Source of the DNA: an uncultured Bacteroidota bacterium
Lineage (GTDB): Bacteria > Bacteroidota > Bacteroidia > NS11-12g > UBA9320
Length of the DNA: 43,840 nucleotides
Direction of reading: 5' to 3'
Assembly: GCA_913054375.1 (NCBI GenBank)
Contig: CAJXIQ010000003.1
Location: 1 to 43,840 of the forward strand
Shown here: positions 2,649 through 11,605 of the stretch, in pieces
How positions within the stretch are numbered: the first letter of the stretch is position 1
Layout of the letters: every line of letters starts with the position of its first letter
Notes under the pieces: generated by a model
Database searches by the model: none
Seen by the model: the letters and a program-made list of their open reading frames with translations, nothing else
Told to the model about the DNA's origin: nothing
Translations under genes and position numbers: made by a program

Positions 2649-3899
2649 TTATCTTAGCTTGAATGTGATAATGGTAAAAATGGCTAGCATGATGCCAACA
2701 ATCCAGAAGCGTACAACTATTTTAGGCTCTGCATATCCTAGTTTTTGGTAATGATGATGAAGTGGAGACATTTTAAAGATCCTTCTACCTTCACCGTATT
2801 TCTTTTTGGTGTACTTGAAATAACTCACTTGCATCATCACACTCAGATTTTCTACTAAGAATATTCCACACAAAATAGGAAGCACAAGCTCCTTGCGTAT
2901 CATAAGAGCAAATACCGCTATAACACCTCCTAGTGCTAAACTGCCCGTATCGCCCATAAAAACCTGAGCAGGAAAGCTATTATACCACAAGAATCCAATA
3001 CATGCACCTGCTAGTGCAGCTGCATAAATCACCAATTCACCCTGATTTGGTATGAACATGATATTGAGGTAATCTGAAAATATGAGGTTACCACTGATAA
3101 AGGCGAGTACTGCCAGCGTAATACTAACAATAGCACTTGTACCCGCAGCTAATCCGTCTATCCCATCTGTAAGGTTGGCACCATTGGATACGGCAGTTAC
3201 CACCACTACTACCACGAGCATAAAAACAATCCAAGACCATTTTTTTGCCGCAGCGTCACTCATCCAAAATAAGAATTTTGAATAATCTATCTCATGTGCT
3301 TTGATAAATGGAAGCGTAGTTGTTGTACTTTTCACATCTTTAAAATACATCAACTGCCCATTGATATTTTTCACCTCAACTCCTTCTGGAGCTTCTTGTA
3401 CGGTAGCTACTTTATACTGCTCACGCACTACAACGTCGTCATTGAAATGAAGAACAAGAGCTACTATAACACCCAAGCCTACTTGACCTACCACCTTAAA
3501 TCTACCGGCTAGTCCTCCTTTGTCTTTCTTATAAATTTTTATATAATCATCTATAAATCCAATAACACCCAGCCATACGGTACTGAATATCATGAGTTGG
3601 ACATAGATATTATTTAGCTTTGCAAAAAGCAATGTAGGAATAAGGATAGCTGCTATAATGATAAGGCCACCCATGGTAGGTGTACCTCTTTTTGCTTCTT
3701 CACCACTAAGACCGAGAGTACGGATAGTCTCCGCAGCTTGCAAGTTTCTTAACTTTTCTATGAGCGTTTTTCCAAAAACCAAGGAAATAATAAGCGACAC
3801 AATTACCGCTAGCGAAGCTCTAAATGAGATATACTGAAACACACCTGCTCCAGGTAGGTTGTATGTGTCTTGTAGGTAGTCGAATAAGTGATATAACAT
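2649..3899 (-). CDS. mraY: Phospho-N-acetylmuramoyl-pentapeptide-transferase
   Basis: 416 aa multi-[35 protein letters not shown] motifs. Confidence 0.97.
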
Positions 3900-5356
3900 T
3901 ACTCTTTTATTAGTTTTAAGTTCTTGATTATGATTTCTTTATCATCAAATGGTTGACGTACTCCATTGATTTCTTGGTAGGTCTCGTGACCCTTGCCTGC
4001 TACTAGTATTACATCTCCATAGCTACTCAGACTTATGGCCGTTTTTATGGCTTCTTCTCTGTTGCTTATTTGCAATACCTTCTTGAAATGTTTGGGTTCT
4101 ACTCCGACCATCATTTCTTTGATGATCTCATTTGGATCCTCGTTACGTGGATTATCGCTAGTTAAAATTACACGCGTACTAGCCTCACAGGCTATACGAG
4201 CCATCACCGGACGTTTCTCTTTGTCTCTATTCCCACCGCAGCCTACTACAGTGATAAATTGCTCATTTGTAGTACGTATTGCATTTACAGTATCTACTAC
4301 ATTTTGCAGTGCATCTGGTGTATGGGCATAGTCTACTATAGCTGTAATCCCTGCTTCTTTTATATTCTGAAAACGCCCATCTACACTATTGATAGCACTG
4401 AGTGCTGTTACTATATCTAAATGCTCTTTACCAAGCAAAAATGCCGCACCATAAACGGACAGTACATTGTATGCATTGAACTTACCTACTAGCCTGAGCC
4501 AAACTTCACTAGTGCGTATATTCAAGAGCATACCATCGAAGTCGCTTTCTATCACTTTCGTTTTGAAATCGCTTATCGACTTTAGACTGTAGGTATACAC
4601 ACTCGCCTTGGTGTTCTGCACCATTACTTTTCCATTCTTATCGTCCTTATTTACCAATGCAAAAGCATCTGCTCCCAAGCCATCAAAAAGGCGTTTTTTG
4701 GTATATAGATATTCTTTGAAGTCTGTATGATAATCGAGATGATCGTGCGTAATATTGGAGAATATTGCTCCATTAAATTCGAGTCCTACAGTTCTTTTTT
4801 GGTGCAACGCATGAGAACTCACTTCCATAAAAGCATACTCACATCCTGCATCTACCATCTCCGCTAGTAGCTCATTGATACGAACACTGTTTGGCGTGGT
4901 ATGCGTACTAATGGTATCTACACCATTGATACTATATTTTATGGTAGAAAGCAGACCGCACTTGTGACCCATATTCATAAAACACTGGTATAGCATAGTA
5001 GCTATCGATGTTTTACCATTGGTACCTGTAACACCCACAAGCTGAATATTGCTACTTGGATTCTCATAGTACTCTGAAGCCAATTTACCTAAAGCCTCTG
5101 CAGCATCTGACACCACTACATATGTAGCATTACCTCGTTCTGCTGGCAATTCCTCACACAGTATTACACTTGCACCTTGCTCTAAAGCCTTGCTAATATA
5201 CAAGTGTCCATCTGTAGAAGCACCGCGAGTAGCTGCAAACAAAAAACCTTGTTTCACCTCACGAGAATCCAATGTAAGTCCATGTAAATCTCGTTCTTGG
5301 TCACCAACTATCGAAGTCGGTTTTATTGCAGATAATATGTCTATTAGTACTCTCAA
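3899..5356 (-). CDS. murE: UDP-N-acetylmuramoyl-L-alanyl-D-glutamate--diaminopimelate-type ligase, TTG start overlapping ftsI stop
   Basis: [37 protein letters not shown] motifs (DNPR suggests meso-DAP ligase). Confidence 0.96.
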
Positions 5357-7422
5357 TTCAACCGGATATAAACTGTTCTATTTGCTTGGACACGTGTACC
5401 TGGTTCTGGACTCTGCTCCATCACTCTACCGTGACCATGAATTATTGATCGAAAGCCGTTTAACTCTAAGAGATACATCGCATCTTTAGCGCCCATACCT
5501 TTCAGGTTTGGAACCTTACCGTCTCGCACAACCACACCACTTGCTGACCCAGAAACCGCATTAATACTTACGATATCTGTATTTACCTCGTTTTTTAGTT
5601 TTACGTTTAGCACATTATTTAGCTGCTTGAAATCTGAATAATAACCGCGGGTGTACAACGGTGACTCTGTGCCTTTGTAGTCAATTTCTTGCTTGACACT
5701 AATGGTAAATATCTTATTAGCGATTTCACTAAATACTGGTGCAGCTACAGATGAGGCATAAAACTTACCGTTACTAGGCTCGGTTACACGCACGTAAATA
5801 CTATACACTGGCTTATCCGCAGGGAAATGACCCACAAAACTGGCATTGTACTTTTTTGATTTCTGGTAAGCACCTTTGGTGGCTATCTGTGCCGTACCTG
5901 TTTTTCCGCCCATAGAAACCACATTACTTCGCACTCCACGAGCAGATCCCTCGGTAAATACAGCAGCAGTTATTTCTTTGATCTTGTCTGATGTTTTCTT
6001 ACTGCAAACGCGAATTCTATTTACTTTTTTGTTATTGTCCTTGATAACCAAACCAGCATCTGTGACCTGATTTACAATCCGTGGCTTAATCATAATGCCG
6101 TCATTAATAATGCCGTTATATGCCGTAAGTAATTGCAAAGGAGTGTGTTGATTCTCATAACCTATGGCCAACCAAGGAAGCGTAAGCTGAGACCAACTAC
6201 TACTTTGCGGATGATTGAGAAACGGTTTTTCTTCTCCCAGTATCTCAATGCCTGTGGTTTTATCTAAATCTAGCTTTCTTAAGTGTGCTATATATTTACT
6301 CGGGTTCTTGGCATAATTGTCAAAAATTATAGAAGAAAATGCTACGTTACTGGAACGGGCAAACGCTTGCTTAAAACTCATTTTAGCAAAGCGACCTTTG
6401 TCTGAATCTCGCATTGGCTTACCGAAATAATCACGTTCACCATTCATTATGTCTATTGTATCATTTACATCAATAAGTCCATCTTCAAATGCTGCCATAG
6501 CGGAGTATACTTTCCATACCGAACCTGGCTCATAACTGCCCCCTACTGCATAATTATACAACTCACCATATGTTCCATCTTCTCTTCTTTTTAGGTTAGA
6601 AATAGCTTTTATTTTACCCGTAGTCACTTCCATTACTACCACACAACCGTGCTTAGCTGCATGCTGTACAAGTGCTTTCTTGAGCGAACGTTGCGCAATT
6701 TCTTGAAAATCTATATTGATAGATGTATGAACATCACGCCCGTTTTGAGGCTCTATTAAATTTGCATCATTGAGTGGACGATAGCCGCCAGAGATACGCT
6801 GCACTAAGCGCTTACCTTTGGTTCCCCCTAAATCTTCATCGTACGCTCTCTCAAGACCTACACCGGGATTATCAACTGTACTATATCCTATAGTCCTGTA
6901 TGCTAATTGGCCCGCTGGCTTCACACGTTTAGTATTTAACTCAAATAATACTCCGCCTTTGTATCTTCCTTTTCTGAAAATAGCAAAGTCACGGATTGCT
7001 TTCTGTTGGTGATAATTCACCTTACGACGAATTAATTTATATCTATTCTGGTCTGCCCTGGCTTTTTTGAGCATTGCCAAGAAGTATGATGCAGAGTGAT
7101 TGGGAAACAATTCTGACAATTGGAAAGCCAGCTCATTCACATACATCTTGAAGGTATCTGCATTTACAACGGTTGCATCCCATCGTATATCGTAAATGGG
7201 CATAGAAGTAGAAAGTAAGCTCCCATCATCCGAATAAATATTTCCTCTGGCTGGGCTAATATCAATACGACGAATAGTCGTGCTGTCTGACAAGCTCAAC
7301 CACTTATCACCCTCGACTATTTGCACTCTAAACATCTGAAAAGTAACATACAATGCAAAAAGAGCTACGACGCTCATGCCGAAGACCACACGCCACATTA
7401 TGCTTTGCCTTACATTAGTCAT
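5353..7422 (-). CDS. ftsI: Penicillin-binding protein / FtsI transpeptidase with C-terminal PASTA domain
   Basis: Transpeptidase motifs SVWK (YEPGSVWKVYSAM), SSN, KTGTAQ; C-terminal PASTA-like VPNLKGMGAKDAMYLLELNGF...EQSPEPGTRV. Confidence 0.94.
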   Translation of the reverse strand: MTNVRQSIMWRVVFGMSVVALFALYVTFQMFRVQIVEGDKWLSLSDSTTIRRIDISPARGNIYSDDGSLLSTSMPIYDIRWDATVVNADTFKMYVNELAFQLSELFPNHSASYFLAMLKKARADQNRYKLIRRKVNYHQQKAIRDFAIFRKGRYKGGVLFELNTKRVKPAGQLAYRTIGYSTVDNPGVGLERAYDEDLGGTKGKRLVQRISGGYRPLNDANLIEPQNGRDVHTSINIDFQEIAQRSLKKALVQHAAKHGCVVVMEVTTGKIKAISNLKRREDGTYGELYNYAVGGSYEPGSVWKVYSAMAAFEDGLIDVNDTIDIMNGERDYFGKPMRDSDKGRFAKMSFKQAFARSSNVAFSSIIFDNYAKNPSKYIAHLRKLDLDKTTGIEILGEEKPFLNHPQSSSWSQLTLPWLAIGYENQHTPLQLLTAYNGIINDGIMIKPRIVNQVTDAGLVIKDNNKKVNRIRVCSKKTSDKIKEITAAVFTEGSARGVRSNVVSMGGKTGTAQIATKGAYQKSKKYNASFVGHFPADKPVYSIYVRVTEPSNGKFYASSVAAPVFSEIANKIFTISVKQEIDYKGTESPLYTRGYYSDFKQLNNVLNVKLKNEVNTDIVSINAVSGSASGVVVRDGKVPNLKGMGAKDAMYLLELNGFRSIIHGHGRVMEQSPEPGTRVQANRTVYIRLN

Positions 7423-7723
7423 TTTTTTGCTTTTTTATGACTGTTACTGCTCTATTGGGTTCTTTCACCCCACGCTCAGTTAGTCGTTCTTCCAGATTTG
7501 CTCTTGAGCGATTTTTCATTAATTCGGATTTGAGTGTGATATTCTCCGCTCTTTTTTCCACTAGGTTTTTTTTAGTAGACTCTATATCGCGTACTATGTT
7601 ATCTGTACGATGTGTGAGGTAGATATACAGTAGAGCCACCCCAAATAAGAAGATAAGGTAGTTGATCCATTCGGTGGTGAGCTTAAGTTCTGGCGTCAAA
7701 ATGGATTTCTTTTGTTTTGCCAT
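7415..7723 (-). CDS. FtsL-like bitopic division protein
   Basis: 102 aa, one TM then coiled coil, located between rsmH and ftsI as expected for FtsL. Confidence 0.75.
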   Translation of the reverse strand: MAKQKKSILTPELKLTTEWINYLIFLFGVALLYIYLTHRTDNIVRDIESTKKNLVEKRAENITLKSELMKNRSRANLEERLTERGVKEPNRAVTVIKKQKND

Positions 7724-8628
7724 CAGATACGTTCTGCTACTCTGAGTTTTGCACTGCGTGCTCTGGAATTTATCTCTATCTCTTGGCTGCTCGCCATGAC
7801 AGGCTTGCGACTTATCGCCTTATACACCTGCGGTAAGTTTCCAAACGGATCTGGATTCTTGTCTCCAGCTACATTGCCCGTTTGCACAAGGTTCTTTACT
7901 ATTCTATCTTCTAACGAGTGGTAAGACATAACTACTAGCCTCCCACTGGGCTTAAGCAAATCTGTAGCCTGCTCAAGCATTAGCTCTAGTGTGCTCATCT
8001 CTGCATTCACCTCGATACGCACTGCCTGGTACACCTTAGCTAGCGTCTTATTTCTTGTCTTATCATTGAGAAATCGCTCCAATGCTATTTCGAGGTCTTC
8101 TGTAGTTTCTATGGGTTTTGCCGCACGATAATTGAGCACAGCATTTGCCATAGGCGACGCCTTATCCAACTCTCCATAACTACGAAACACCTTTGCCAAT
8201 CTTGGCTGATCATACGTATTGAGTACATTCTTAGCGGAAATTTCTGCTTCCGTATTCATACGCATATCCAGATCGGCCTCTCCAAATCGAAAAGAAAAGC
8301 CTCTACCCTTTGCATCTAAGTGATGCGAACTCACACCCAAATCTGCTAAAAGACCGTCTATTTTGCTCACTCCATAGTAGGAGCAGAAGTTTTCTAAATA
8401 CCTAAAATTTCCTTGACAGAAGTACAATCGTGGATCATCTATTCTATTTTCAACAGCATCTTCGTCTTGGTCAAAAACCAATAACTTACCCCTCTCACCA
8501 AGTACGTTTAATATAGCTCGCGAATGGCCACCACCGCCGTAGGTAACATCTACATACACGCCGTTCGGTTCTATTCGCAATCCATCGAGACACTCTTGCA
8601 GCATTACAGGTACGTGATACTTACTCAT
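7723..8628 (-). CDS. rsmH: 16S rRNA (cytosine(1402)-N(4))-methyltransferase RsmH (MraW); start set to ATG at 8628 rather than the ORF-track 8649
   Basis: MSKYHVPVMLQECLDGL, DVTYGGGGHSRAIL, GLLADLGVSSHHLD motifs; strong SD immediately upstream of this ATG. Confidence 0.96.
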   Translation of the reverse strand: MSKYHVPVMLQECLDGLRIEPNGVYVDVTYGGGGHSRAILNVLGERGKLLVFDQDEDAVENRIDDPRLYFCQGNFRYLENFCSYYGVSKIDGLLADLGVSSHHLDAKGRGFSFRFGEADLDMRMNTEAEISAKNVLNTYDQPRLAKVFRSYGELDKASPMANAVLNYRAAKPIETTEDLEIALERFLNDKTRNKTLAKVYQAVRIEVNAEMSTLELMLEQATDLLKPSGRLVVMSYHSLEDRIVKNLVQTGNVAGDKNPDPFGNLPQVYKAISRKPVMASSQEIEINSRARSAKLRVAERI

Positions 8629-9094
8629 TATCACCTCCCTTAGTTGCATTGCCCATTACATCTTCAGCCAAATTAGCAAAGTCGTCTGCATCTACATCCA
8701 TCATGTCTTCATATAGATGTTTACTCCAGATTTCTATTCGATTGCCATACGCATAAAAAATGGCCTCATTCTTAATCTCAGCATACTCACACAATTTTTT
8801 GGGCACTAGCATACGAGAGGAGTTGTCTAATTGTATCTCAGTCGCACCATTACTAAACTGACGAATGAACATACGGTGCTGCTTATTGAAATGATTGAGA
8901 GATTGCAATCCATTCAACTCATCATCCCAGTCTTTTCGGGTATAAAGCGTGAGACACTTTTCAAAGCCACGATTCACCACTAACTTACCTACAGCATCTT
9001 TCGGAAGCTGCTTTTTGAGACCAGCAGGCAAAACCACACGACCCTTGTCGTCTAGTTTGACCTCAAATTCTCCTATGTAAAGTGGTTTAGACAC
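8621..9094 (-). CDS. mraZ: Transcriptional regulator MraZ
   Basis: 157 aa; duplicated SpoVT/AbrB-like DDKGRVVLPAGLKK and NSSRMLVPKKLCEYA; first gene of dcw cluster. Confidence 0.95.
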   Translation of the reverse strand: MSKPLYIGEFEVKLDDKGRVVLPAGLKKQLPKDAVGKLVVNRGFEKCLTLYTRKDWDDELNGLQSLNHFNKQHRMFIRQFSNGATEIQLDNSSRMLVPKKLCEYAEIKNEAIFYAYGNRIEIWSKHLYEDMMDVDADDFANLAEDVMGNATKGGDNE

Positions 9095-9116: not shown

Positions 9117-9124
9117 CAAAAGTA
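9117..9124 (-). promoter_or_regulatory. Bacteroidetes -7 motif TACTTTTG for mraZ/dcw
   Basis: Minus-strand TACTTTTG ending 22 nt before mraZ ATG; matches TAnnTTTG. Confidence 0.7.
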
Positions 9125-9134
9125 AAACGAAATC

Positions 9135-9159
9135 TCCCACTTTACCCCACTATCTCCCA
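9135..9159 (-). promoter_or_regulatory. MraZ operator: three TGGGN boxes with exact 10-bp period
   Basis: Minus strand reads TGGGA-gatag-TGGGG-taaag-TGGGA (boxes at 9155-9159, 9145-9149, 9135-9139), just upstream of the mraZ -7 motif. Confidence 0.88.
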
Positions 9160-9412
9160 CTTTTTCACATAAGTATTCCACAAACAATGTTATTTACTTG
9201 ATTACTAACGTTTTAATAGGTGGCATAAATTCCCGTAAATTTTCAGTATTAGCGTTTATGGACGGATAAAAAGCGCCTTTTTGGGGTATAAAGGGAGAAT
9301 GTGGGACACGATAGGACCACAGAAAACGCCCAGACGCGTATGCCTACAAAAAGAAGATTACCATACCACACATCGTTCAAAAACAGCGTACCTACATCAT
9401 TGCCACTTCGCT

Positions 9413-9429: not shown

Positions 9430-10413
9430 ATGTCTCAAAAACAACAGCCAAAACCAAGCACTACCGGAGTAAAAAGTAAACTGCACCCAAGAAATAGAAA
9501 TAAGAGCAGGTATAACTTTAAGCAGCTGATTGAAGAAAACCCTGCTCTAAAAAAATACGTAGCGGTTAACAAGTACGGTTCAGAAACAATAGATTTCTTT
9601 AATGCTGATGCAGTAAAGCTTCTCAATCAAGCATTACTAAAAAAAGACTATGGCATAGATCATTGGGATATTCCTCAAGATTTCTTGTGCCCTCCTATAC
9701 CGGGCAGAGCCGATTATATACACCATATTGCAGACTTACTAGGCAACGACGACAATGAAAATATACCTCGTGGACCACGTGTAAAAGTCCTAGACATAGG
9801 TACGGGAGCAAATTGCATCTATCCCATAATAGGCTGCATAGAATACGATTGGAATTTTGTAGCTGCGGATATCAATCCTAAAAGTATACAAATCGCTACC
9901 GCTATCACTAAAGCAAACAAACTAGCAATAGAAGTACGTTTGCAACGCAATCCTTCTAACATTTTCAAAGGAGTCATTAAAGCAGACGAGCACTTTGATA
10001 TAACGACATGTAACCCTCCGTTTCACGCGAGTGCTGAGGATGCTATACATGCCAATATGCGTAAGGTAAAAAATCTGTCCAAAGGAAAAGCAACTGACAG
10101 TAAAGGTAATAAACCTATTACAGCAGTAAGTTTTGGTGGCCAGCATACTGAACTTTGGTGTGTTGGTGGCGAGATTCGATTTGTCCGCGATATGATAAAA
10201 GAGAGTGCTCTTTTTAAGAAAAACGTATTATGGTTTAGTACTTTGGTGAGTAAGGAGGGCAATCTAAAAGATATATACGAATCGCTTCGAAATGTAAATG
10301 CTCAACAAGTAAAAACCATAGATATGGGACAAGGCAATAAGAGTAGTCGCGTAGTAGCTTGGTCTTACCACACAGCCAATGAGCGTAAAAATTGGAGACG
10401 TGGGAACGGATAA
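9430..10413 (+). CDS. rlmF: 23S rRNA (adenine(1618)-N(6))-methyltransferase RlmF
   Basis: 327 aa; KLHPRNRNKSRYNF, VLDIGTGANCIYPIIG, TCNPPFHASAEDA motifs. Confidence 0.95.
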   Translation: MSQKQQPKPSTTGVKSKLHPRNRNKSRYNFKQLIEENPALKKYVAVNKYGSETIDFFNADAVKLLNQALLKKDYGIDHWDIPQDFLCPPIPGRADYIHHIADLLGNDDNENIPRGPRVKVLDIGTGANCIYPIIGCIEYDWNFVAADINPKSIQIATAITKANKLAIEVRLQRNPSNIFKGVIKADEHFDITTCNPPFHASAEDAIHANMRKVKNLSKGKATDSKGNKPITAVSFGGQHTELWCVGGEIRFVRDMIKESALFKKNVLWFSTLVSKEGNLKDIYESLRNVNAQQVKTIDMGQGNKSSRVVAWSYHTANERKNWRRGNG

Positions 10414-10540: not shown

Positions 10541-11605
10541 TCACTCCACCACAGTAGCACTCGTAATCGGCTCGTTACTTTTTACTATCACAAAACTAGA
10601 GGTAGCATAAAATGCTCCACCTTGCCCAGATGCTGTACCACCATCTGTAGTCCACTCCTCGTATTCGTATTCAAAAATGAACGTCTTACCGGCTTGCGAT
10701 TCTGAGAAAATATCTGTACGCACTGGCACTGCCATACCTGGACACCACCCTGCTCTATCAGGCTCCCAGTTCCCACGCTGTGGTTGAATTACATTTTCTG
10801 GGCAACCAATAGGCCCCATAGTATGCGAAAAGACATTCTCTCCATCTATTTTTACATCGTGTGTTCTAAAGCACCACTCTGCACACGGTCTACCGTCGCT
10901 ATCTGCAGGAGTAGCGTGCCCCCAACCCGATATAACAGTACGTAGAGCCGTTTCTTGTGCATTGCTCGGTATAGTGATTGTACGTTCGAGATCATACGCA
11001 TGTTCTTTACCATACGGCACACCAGAGGTAGACCACTGGTCATACATCAGCACTGGACTTACAGCATAGTATTGATAATCTGGCACTCCCGTGGTTACCT
11101 CAAAATTCACTGTAAGATTCCACCCGTCTGCTCCCCACGTCTCTATACGAGCCCGAAGGTCTACATCACCCTGAAGCAGTGATTTAAAATCTGTAACATC
11201 TATCTCGATGCCTTTTTCTAATTGAGAGGTATTTACTCCATATGGAGTAATGTATCTTCCAATTTCATACCACTTATCTGCAGCCTTGTCTTTTACTTTT
11301 ATGTTGGCATATACATCCCAAATATTGCAACCACCCGTTGGACAATCTAAGATCACAAACATTTTGATATTATCTATATTTCGCTCTTGAGGATGCATCG
11401 TAAACGTCTTTTCTACCGTCTGGTTCTCTCCGCCTCCAAAGGCAATGCGTTGTTCTTCAAAGGTTTTGTATTCTATGGTTTCTACTACCACTACTTCCTC
11501 TTCTGGGATAGGATCTTCTTTCACTTCCTTATCCTTACACGCTTGATAACCTAGAATCAGTGGCAAAGCGATAGCTACTATTTTGATATATTTCATTGAC
11601 TTCAA
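10541..11605 (-). CDS. Peptide-N4-(N-acetyl-beta-glucosaminyl)asparagine amidase, PNGase F-like, putative lipoprotein
   Basis: Strong similarity to remembered Elizabethkingia PNGase F: WYEIGRYITPYGV, EIDVTDFKSLLQGD, VISGWGHATP, CAEWCFRTH, NWEPDRAGWCPGMAVP, AFYATSSFVI; N-terminal signal with Cys (LGYQAC). Confidence 0.93.
   Translation of the reverse strand: MKSMKYIKIVAIALPLILGYQACKDKEVKEDPIPEEEVVVVETIEYKTFEEQRIAFGGGENQTVEKTFTMHPQERNIDNIKMFVILDCPTGGCNIWDVYANIKVKDKAADKWYEIGRYITPYGVNTSQLEKGIEIDVTDFKSLLQGDVDLRARIETWGADGWNLTVNFEVTTGVPDYQYYAVSPVLMYDQWSTSGVPYGKEHAYDLERTITIPSNAQETALRTVISGWGHATPADSDGRPCAEWCFRTHDVKIDGENVFSHTMGPIGCPENVIQPQRGNWEPDRAGWCPGMAVPVRTDIFSESQAGKTFIFEYEYEEWTTDGGTASGQGGAFYATSSFVIVKSNEPITSATVVE

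Follow-up and report, generated by a model that had tools for sequence, protein, structure and literature searches.

A putative MraZ operator lies upstream of the core promoter motif of the division and cell wall cluster in an uncultured Bacteroidota bacterium

Our analysis concerns the promoter region of mraZ in the window, by which we mean the whole 43,840-nt stretch of DNA that was analysed. MraZ heads the division and cell wall (dcw) cluster in most bacteria, and its role has been studied in few of them. By gene content and order the cluster in the window is a genuine dcw cluster, because mraZ is followed by rsmH (mraW), an FtsL_2 gene, a transpeptidase with PASTA domains, a Mur ligase, mraY, a MurD-like ligase and ftsW (Table 1). 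The predicted MraZ protein scores above the cut-offs of both family profiles (PF02381, 99.6 bits against a cut-off of 23; TIGR00242, 108.1 bits against 98.35) and carries both DxxxR motifs, DDKGR and DNSSR, which align to DSKGR and DGAGR of the Escherichia coli protein. With two DxxxR repeats and its place as the first dcw gene, before rsmH, it belongs to the MraZ family. Several MraZ entries in the PDB match it by sequence, and our literature search found no paper on the recent MraZ entries. The start of rsmH was placed by the ORF caller at the ATG at 8649, but the ATG at 8628, which is in the same frame, overlaps the stop codon of mraZ. In this part of the minus strand (8621-8640) the mraZ/rsmH overlap, ATGAGTAA, is preceded just upstream by AGGGAGGTGA, which resembles a Shine-Dalgarno sequence; the lineage is thought to make little use of Shine-Dalgarno signals, and such a stretch is unusual there. 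On the plus strand, rlmF (9430-10413) diverges from the dcw cluster, and beside it on the minus strand (10541-11605) lies a gene for a protein with a PNGase F C-terminal domain (PF09113, 1.5e-12), in which the match to the N-terminal domain, PF09112, is sub-threshold.

Table 1. Features of the mraZ promoter region and of the dcw cluster in the window
Feature	Position	Strand	Basis or remark
Conserved upstream element TGTGGAATA	9182-9174	minus	one mismatch from TGTGNAWAA (reverse of TTWTNCACA)
Putative degenerate box 4, ATGT	9170-9167	minus	one 10-bp step further upstream; TG core alone kept
MraZ box 1, TGGGA (putative)	9159-9155	minus	within AAAGTGGGA; letters read directly; GTGG/GTGT kept in relatives
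MraZ box 2, TGGGG (putative)	9149-9145	minus	within ATAGTGGGG; letters read directly; 10-bp phase kept
MraZ box 3, TGGGA (putative)	9139-9135	minus	within AAAGTGGGA; letters read directly; 14-17 nt to TAnnTTTG in relatives
Predicted -7 promoter motif TACTTTTG, consensus TAnnTTTG	9124-9117	minus	letters read; sense-strand bias in genus
mraZ, 157 aa, GTG start at 9094	8621-9094	minus	PF02381, 9.4e-29; TIGR00242, 3.5e-31
rsmH (mraW)	7723-8649	minus	PF01795, 5.4e-88
ftsL-like (FtsL_2)	7415-7723	minus	PF19579, 1.5e-15
FtsI-type transpeptidase with PASTA	5353-7422	minus	Pfam match; FtsI identity from gene order
MurE-type Mur ligase	3899-5356	minus	Pfam match; MurE identity from gene order
mraY	2649-3899	minus	Pfam match
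MurD-like ligase (murD)	1302-2645	minus	Pfam match
ftsW	146-1294	minus	Pfam match

Ahead of mraZ the minus strand reads TTTGTGGAATACTTATGTGAAAAAGTGGGAGATAGTGGGGTAAAGTGGGAGATTTCGTTTTACTTTTGACATCAAC. An earlier note on this DNA had claimed three TGGGN boxes with an exact 10-bp period at this site, and direct reading of the minus strand confirms it: 9159-9135 reads TGGGA-N5-TGGGG-N5-TGGGA, with GATAG and TAAAG as the spacers. Ten nucleotides, GATTTCGTTT on the minus strand, separate box 3 from the predicted -7 motif, and the G that precedes box 3 stands 16 nt upstream of the T of that motif. The pattern TGGGN6TGGGN6TGGG has a single match in the window and was found in 0 of 100 dinucleotide shuffles; across the 2.06-Mb genome it again has one match, and the reversed control pattern has 0. 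When the search is made with AGTGG-N5-AGTGG-N5-AGTGG, the dcw site is the sole exact match in the genome and the next best site carries two mismatches. The array thus presents at least three GTG-core boxes with a 10-bp period directly upstream of mraZ, as MraZ operators do. A wider MraZ regulon in the genome was considered and rejected, as sites of this array with up to 3 mismatches number 25 vs 21 for the control, and we claim none of them. About 60 bp upstream of the array, the CCAC of a minus-strand GCCACC (9219-9224), which is GTGG on the other strand, is kept in close relatives.

The array recurs widely upstream of mraZ. Among 97 relatives, 89 have mraZ, and in their regions the array is seen upstream of the gene almost everywhere. 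AGTGG-N5-AGTGG-N5-AGTGG has 35 exact matches in these relatives, of which 33 lie directly upstream of mraZ; the control pattern has 2. Both exceptions are probably assembly breaks at the mraZ promoter: one match (G027:C152:12-36) begins 12 bases into its contig in a genome in which mraZ was not found, and the other (G083:C102:9681-9705) lies on a different contig from mraZ, whose own contig stops a short way ahead of the gene. MraZ is present in 281 of 297 genomes from a broader sample of the phylum. In mraZ upstream regions across the phylum, which the earlier note had suggested aligning as a check, phased boxes recur, with a best score for three phased GTGG boxes of at least 10/12 in 149 of 179 regions (window included) where a first-order Markov control predicts fewer than one. 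These phylum loci cover 34 families and 95 genera, and we use class and family names (f1-f13) as the kinship labels of the genome collection, with the class taken as Bacteroidia in part from the promoter type. Three boxes are not kept by every relative: of 113 class loci, 44 retain just two boxes that are exact and in phase, and 6 lack such boxes when scored as strictly, which weighs against the operator reading.

The relatives also redefine the repeated unit. Across 24 genera with a recognisable -7 motif, weighted by genus, the unit is A-A-A-G-T-G-G-[G/T]-A; the regions were picked for having boxes, so that the frequencies of the core are in part there by construction, which does not hold for the flanks and the G/T ambiguity. 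The unit TGGGN of the earlier note therefore gives way to AAAGTGG[G/T] with the core GTGG, as the last G of TGGG is a T in many relatives. This class-wide unit is the same as that of the site (AAAGTGKN3)3 recognised by MraZ of Mollicutes (PMC5282649), although the lineage and the promoter are different and binding is demonstrated for the Mollicutes site whereas that in the window is putative. A single MraZ site per genome was reported for Mycoplasma genitalium (PMC8475190). The array may in addition have a fourth, degenerate box, since TG occurs at its phase in 49% of the 24 genera (genus-weighted) against 0-21% at neighbouring offsets, and some genera carry a full box there.

MraZ is the obvious ligand of the array, and we expect it to bind there because its gene follows the array, the family binds this unit, the DxxxR motifs are kept and 24 of 27 bases of the operator are identical to those in E. 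coli (AGTGGGAAATTGTGGGGCAAAGTGGGA vs AGTGGGAGATAGTGGGGTAAAGTGGGA). In E. coli, as in the window, the operator consists of three phased boxes upstream of mraZ, and the first gene encodes the binding protein. Conservation and this near identity to the E. coli site support the putative identity of the array as an MraZ operator.

The motif downstream of the boxes is a -7 element of the Bacteroidetes type. We counted TAnnTTTG in the upstream regions of 800 kb from G008, a congener whose genome is near-complete, and obtained 166 sites in sense and 81 in antisense orientation; because of this bias the motif is, on the sequence evidence, a genuine promoter signal in the genus. The sigma-ABfr promoter has TAnnTTTG at -7 and TTTG near -33. 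While TACTTTTG fits the former, reading of the sequence found no -33 TTG at the mraZ promoter in the window, and a TTG 19-24 nt upstream of TAnnTTTG is not enriched in G008 (30/166 sense sites, 18%, vs 12/81 antisense sites, 15%), a comparison in which roughly one sense site in two should be background and a weak -33 preference could escape detection. A smaller earlier sample gave an agreeing result, and in Flavobacterium johnsoniae no -33 motif could be found (PMC7366714). TTTG or TTG near -33 is hence not diagnostic here. The earlier note had proposed that the boxes replace or cover the -33 element; that they cover the DNA around -33 stands, whereas their replacing the element does not, since a -33 TTG is not enriched over antisense sites at the TAnnTTTG promoters of the genus. 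The missing -33 element at mraZ cannot be ascribed to the boxes, because its absence is ordinary in the clade.

What sets this operator apart is where it stands. Counted from the G of the last GTGG/GTGT to the T of TAnnTTTG/A, the spacing is 16 nt at nearly every locus in the window's family and 14-17 nt in several other families of the class. This fixed distance in relatives upholds a further claim of the earlier note, namely that a conserved operator is tied to a Bacteroidetes-type promoter. Of 113 class loci, 56 have TAnnTTTG/A at 12-18 nt beyond the last box on its downstream side, as against 0 of 65 loci from the phylum's other classes. The reverse holds for a TTGA...-10 promoter immediately ahead of the first box, which is present in 43/65 loci outside the class and in 8/113 inside it, where the matches are mostly poor. 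By eye, and uncounted, some other class loci have TATTTAGC at about 17 nt instead of TAnnTTTG, and in family f4 the array has moved one box towards the -7 motif. The sequences thus indicate that in the class the operator usually lies upstream of the core promoter motif, while the other classes of the phylum resemble E. coli. In Pmra of E. coli the boxes begin 7 nt after the -10 element of TTGACA-18-TAAACT, whereas the boxes of the window are upstream of the core motif. Burkholderia cenocepacia has phased 10-bp GTG repeats upstream of mraZ as in the window, and MraZ binding to them was shown there; in contrast to the window, these are four repeats located downstream of the -10 element and overlapping the start site, like those of E. 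coli (PMC7761207). The array of the window does not occupy this position, downstream of -10 and over the start site, which is not a defining feature of the MraZ operator family. As judged from these comparisons, the array is real and is an expected MraZ operator, and the new part is its class-wide placement upstream of the core promoter.

We consider it probable that the array serves as the dcw cluster's MraZ operator and that MraZ bound there lowers transcription of the cluster, a feedback acting on one promoter. MraZ would bind the array just ahead of its own gene, where the boxes span roughly -24 to -50 relative to the start predicted from the -7 motif. Upstream of this motif, bound MraZ would collide with the polymerase carrying the Bacteroidetes primary sigma factor. 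A polymerase blocked in this manner would transcribe less of mraZ and of the division and wall genes, resulting in negative feedback at a single dedicated promoter, and the whole cluster would presumably be co-transcribed. Repression by steric block is the likeliest mechanism, with the sign of the effect suggested by analogy: repression by MraZ is proven in E. coli (Eraso et al. 2014, as cited in PMC8475190 and PMC7761207), and in M. genitalium without MraZ the other genes of the cluster rise (PMC8475190).

The promoter may be common to MraZ and DnaA, which we regard as possible but rather doubtful; TGTGGAATA would then be a (weak) DnaA box tying the dcw cluster to replication, in addition to the MraZ loop. 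Throughout the window's genus, TGTGGA precedes the first box by about 21 bp, and this core is present in almost all family members shown. Support comes mainly from two other families. Exact TTWTNCACA occurs at -150 to -20 in 44/53 loci of f2 (6 expected) and in 8/10 loci of f4 (1.3 expected), and TTATNCACA-N70-95-TGTGNAWAA is found in 61 of 120 f4 genomes, 41 of which have it ahead of mraZ at a distance of less than 300 bp; the other 29 sites of this pattern in the 120 genomes are about as frequent as matches of the backwards control. After TGTG, the f4 elements have either G or C, and their next variable position is filled by A or T; such variation is compatible with a DnaA box but not with a GTGG box. 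In Bacillus subtilis, the region of the ftsL promoter is bound by DnaA (PMC8203912). Against this, the rest of the class (f3-f13 without f4; 1/14) and the other classes (4/65, with 3 expected) are at chance level, and in f2 and f1 the element contains GTGG and could be a further MraZ box, one that is out of phase in the window. In the window itself the conserved element departs from an exact DnaA box by one base, and the exact match that is present, TGTGAAAAA at 9169-9161, is not kept in the genus, where only 2 of 19 members have any exact match in this upstream region. For the window, then, the DnaA link is a weak lead only.

Several f4 loci carry clusters of exact DnaA boxes, among them L147 (boxes at -167, -155, -140 and -77 from mraZ), L122, L146 and L150, and the f4 DnaA-box sequences TTATCCACA, TTATTCACA and TGTGGATAA upstream of mraZ are kept over many genera. 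That these boxes mark a replication origin was considered but is not supported, as sampled GC skew has its minimum at about 2.1 Mb in G008, where mraZ lies at 1.55 Mb, and at about 2.8-3.0 Mb in G129, where the skew is weak and mraZ lies at 2.21 Mb. Neither the class-wide shift of the operator nor the DnaA boxes found alongside it in two families appear in the literature searched, most subscription papers being outside that search.

Two features of the placement count against repression by MraZ. The boxes lie upstream of the -7 motif and not over it, a position that would also fit activation, and the fixed 16-nt register is stricter than a simple blocking site would need, although short conserved promoters may be intolerant of insertions and deletions, which offers an alternative reason for it. 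MraZ bound at this register could instead aid polymerase binding and activate the promoter in positive feedback. The nearly invariant spacing in several families of the class would accord with such a role, as would the lack of a -33 TTG in the window; yet the ordinary promoters of the genus are also without a detectable -33 TTG, so its absence needs no special activator, and MraZ represses in both E. coli and M. genitalium (PMC8475190), which leads us to consider activation unlikely. Least probable is a second promoter, TACTTATG (9175-9168), upstream of the boxes, whereby both promoters would be controlled and the start site of the second one would fall close to the boxes or ahead of them as in E. 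coli, for although exact TATTTTTG or TACTTTTG occurs at the same place in several congeners (e.g., L014, L016, L017 and L021), the window has one mismatch from TAnnTTTG, that motif is not kept there in the other genera of the family, and the bases overlap the TGTGGA element and degenerate box 4, which could explain their conservation.

With repression by MraZ as the preferred reading, we tentatively suggest, as a possibility that we hold with less than even confidence, that the operator kept its sequence and switched promoter side along with an unusual primary sigma factor, and that part of the class adds DnaA boxes, such that the dcw promoter would read both proteins. The box array would be the part under selection, and its place relative to the polymerase can move. 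With this placement one can readily test whether blocking is all that MraZ does, and the DnaA boxes of f4, a well-sampled family, would allow a direct tie of dcw transcription to the initiation of replication to be tested in cultured bacteria of the class.
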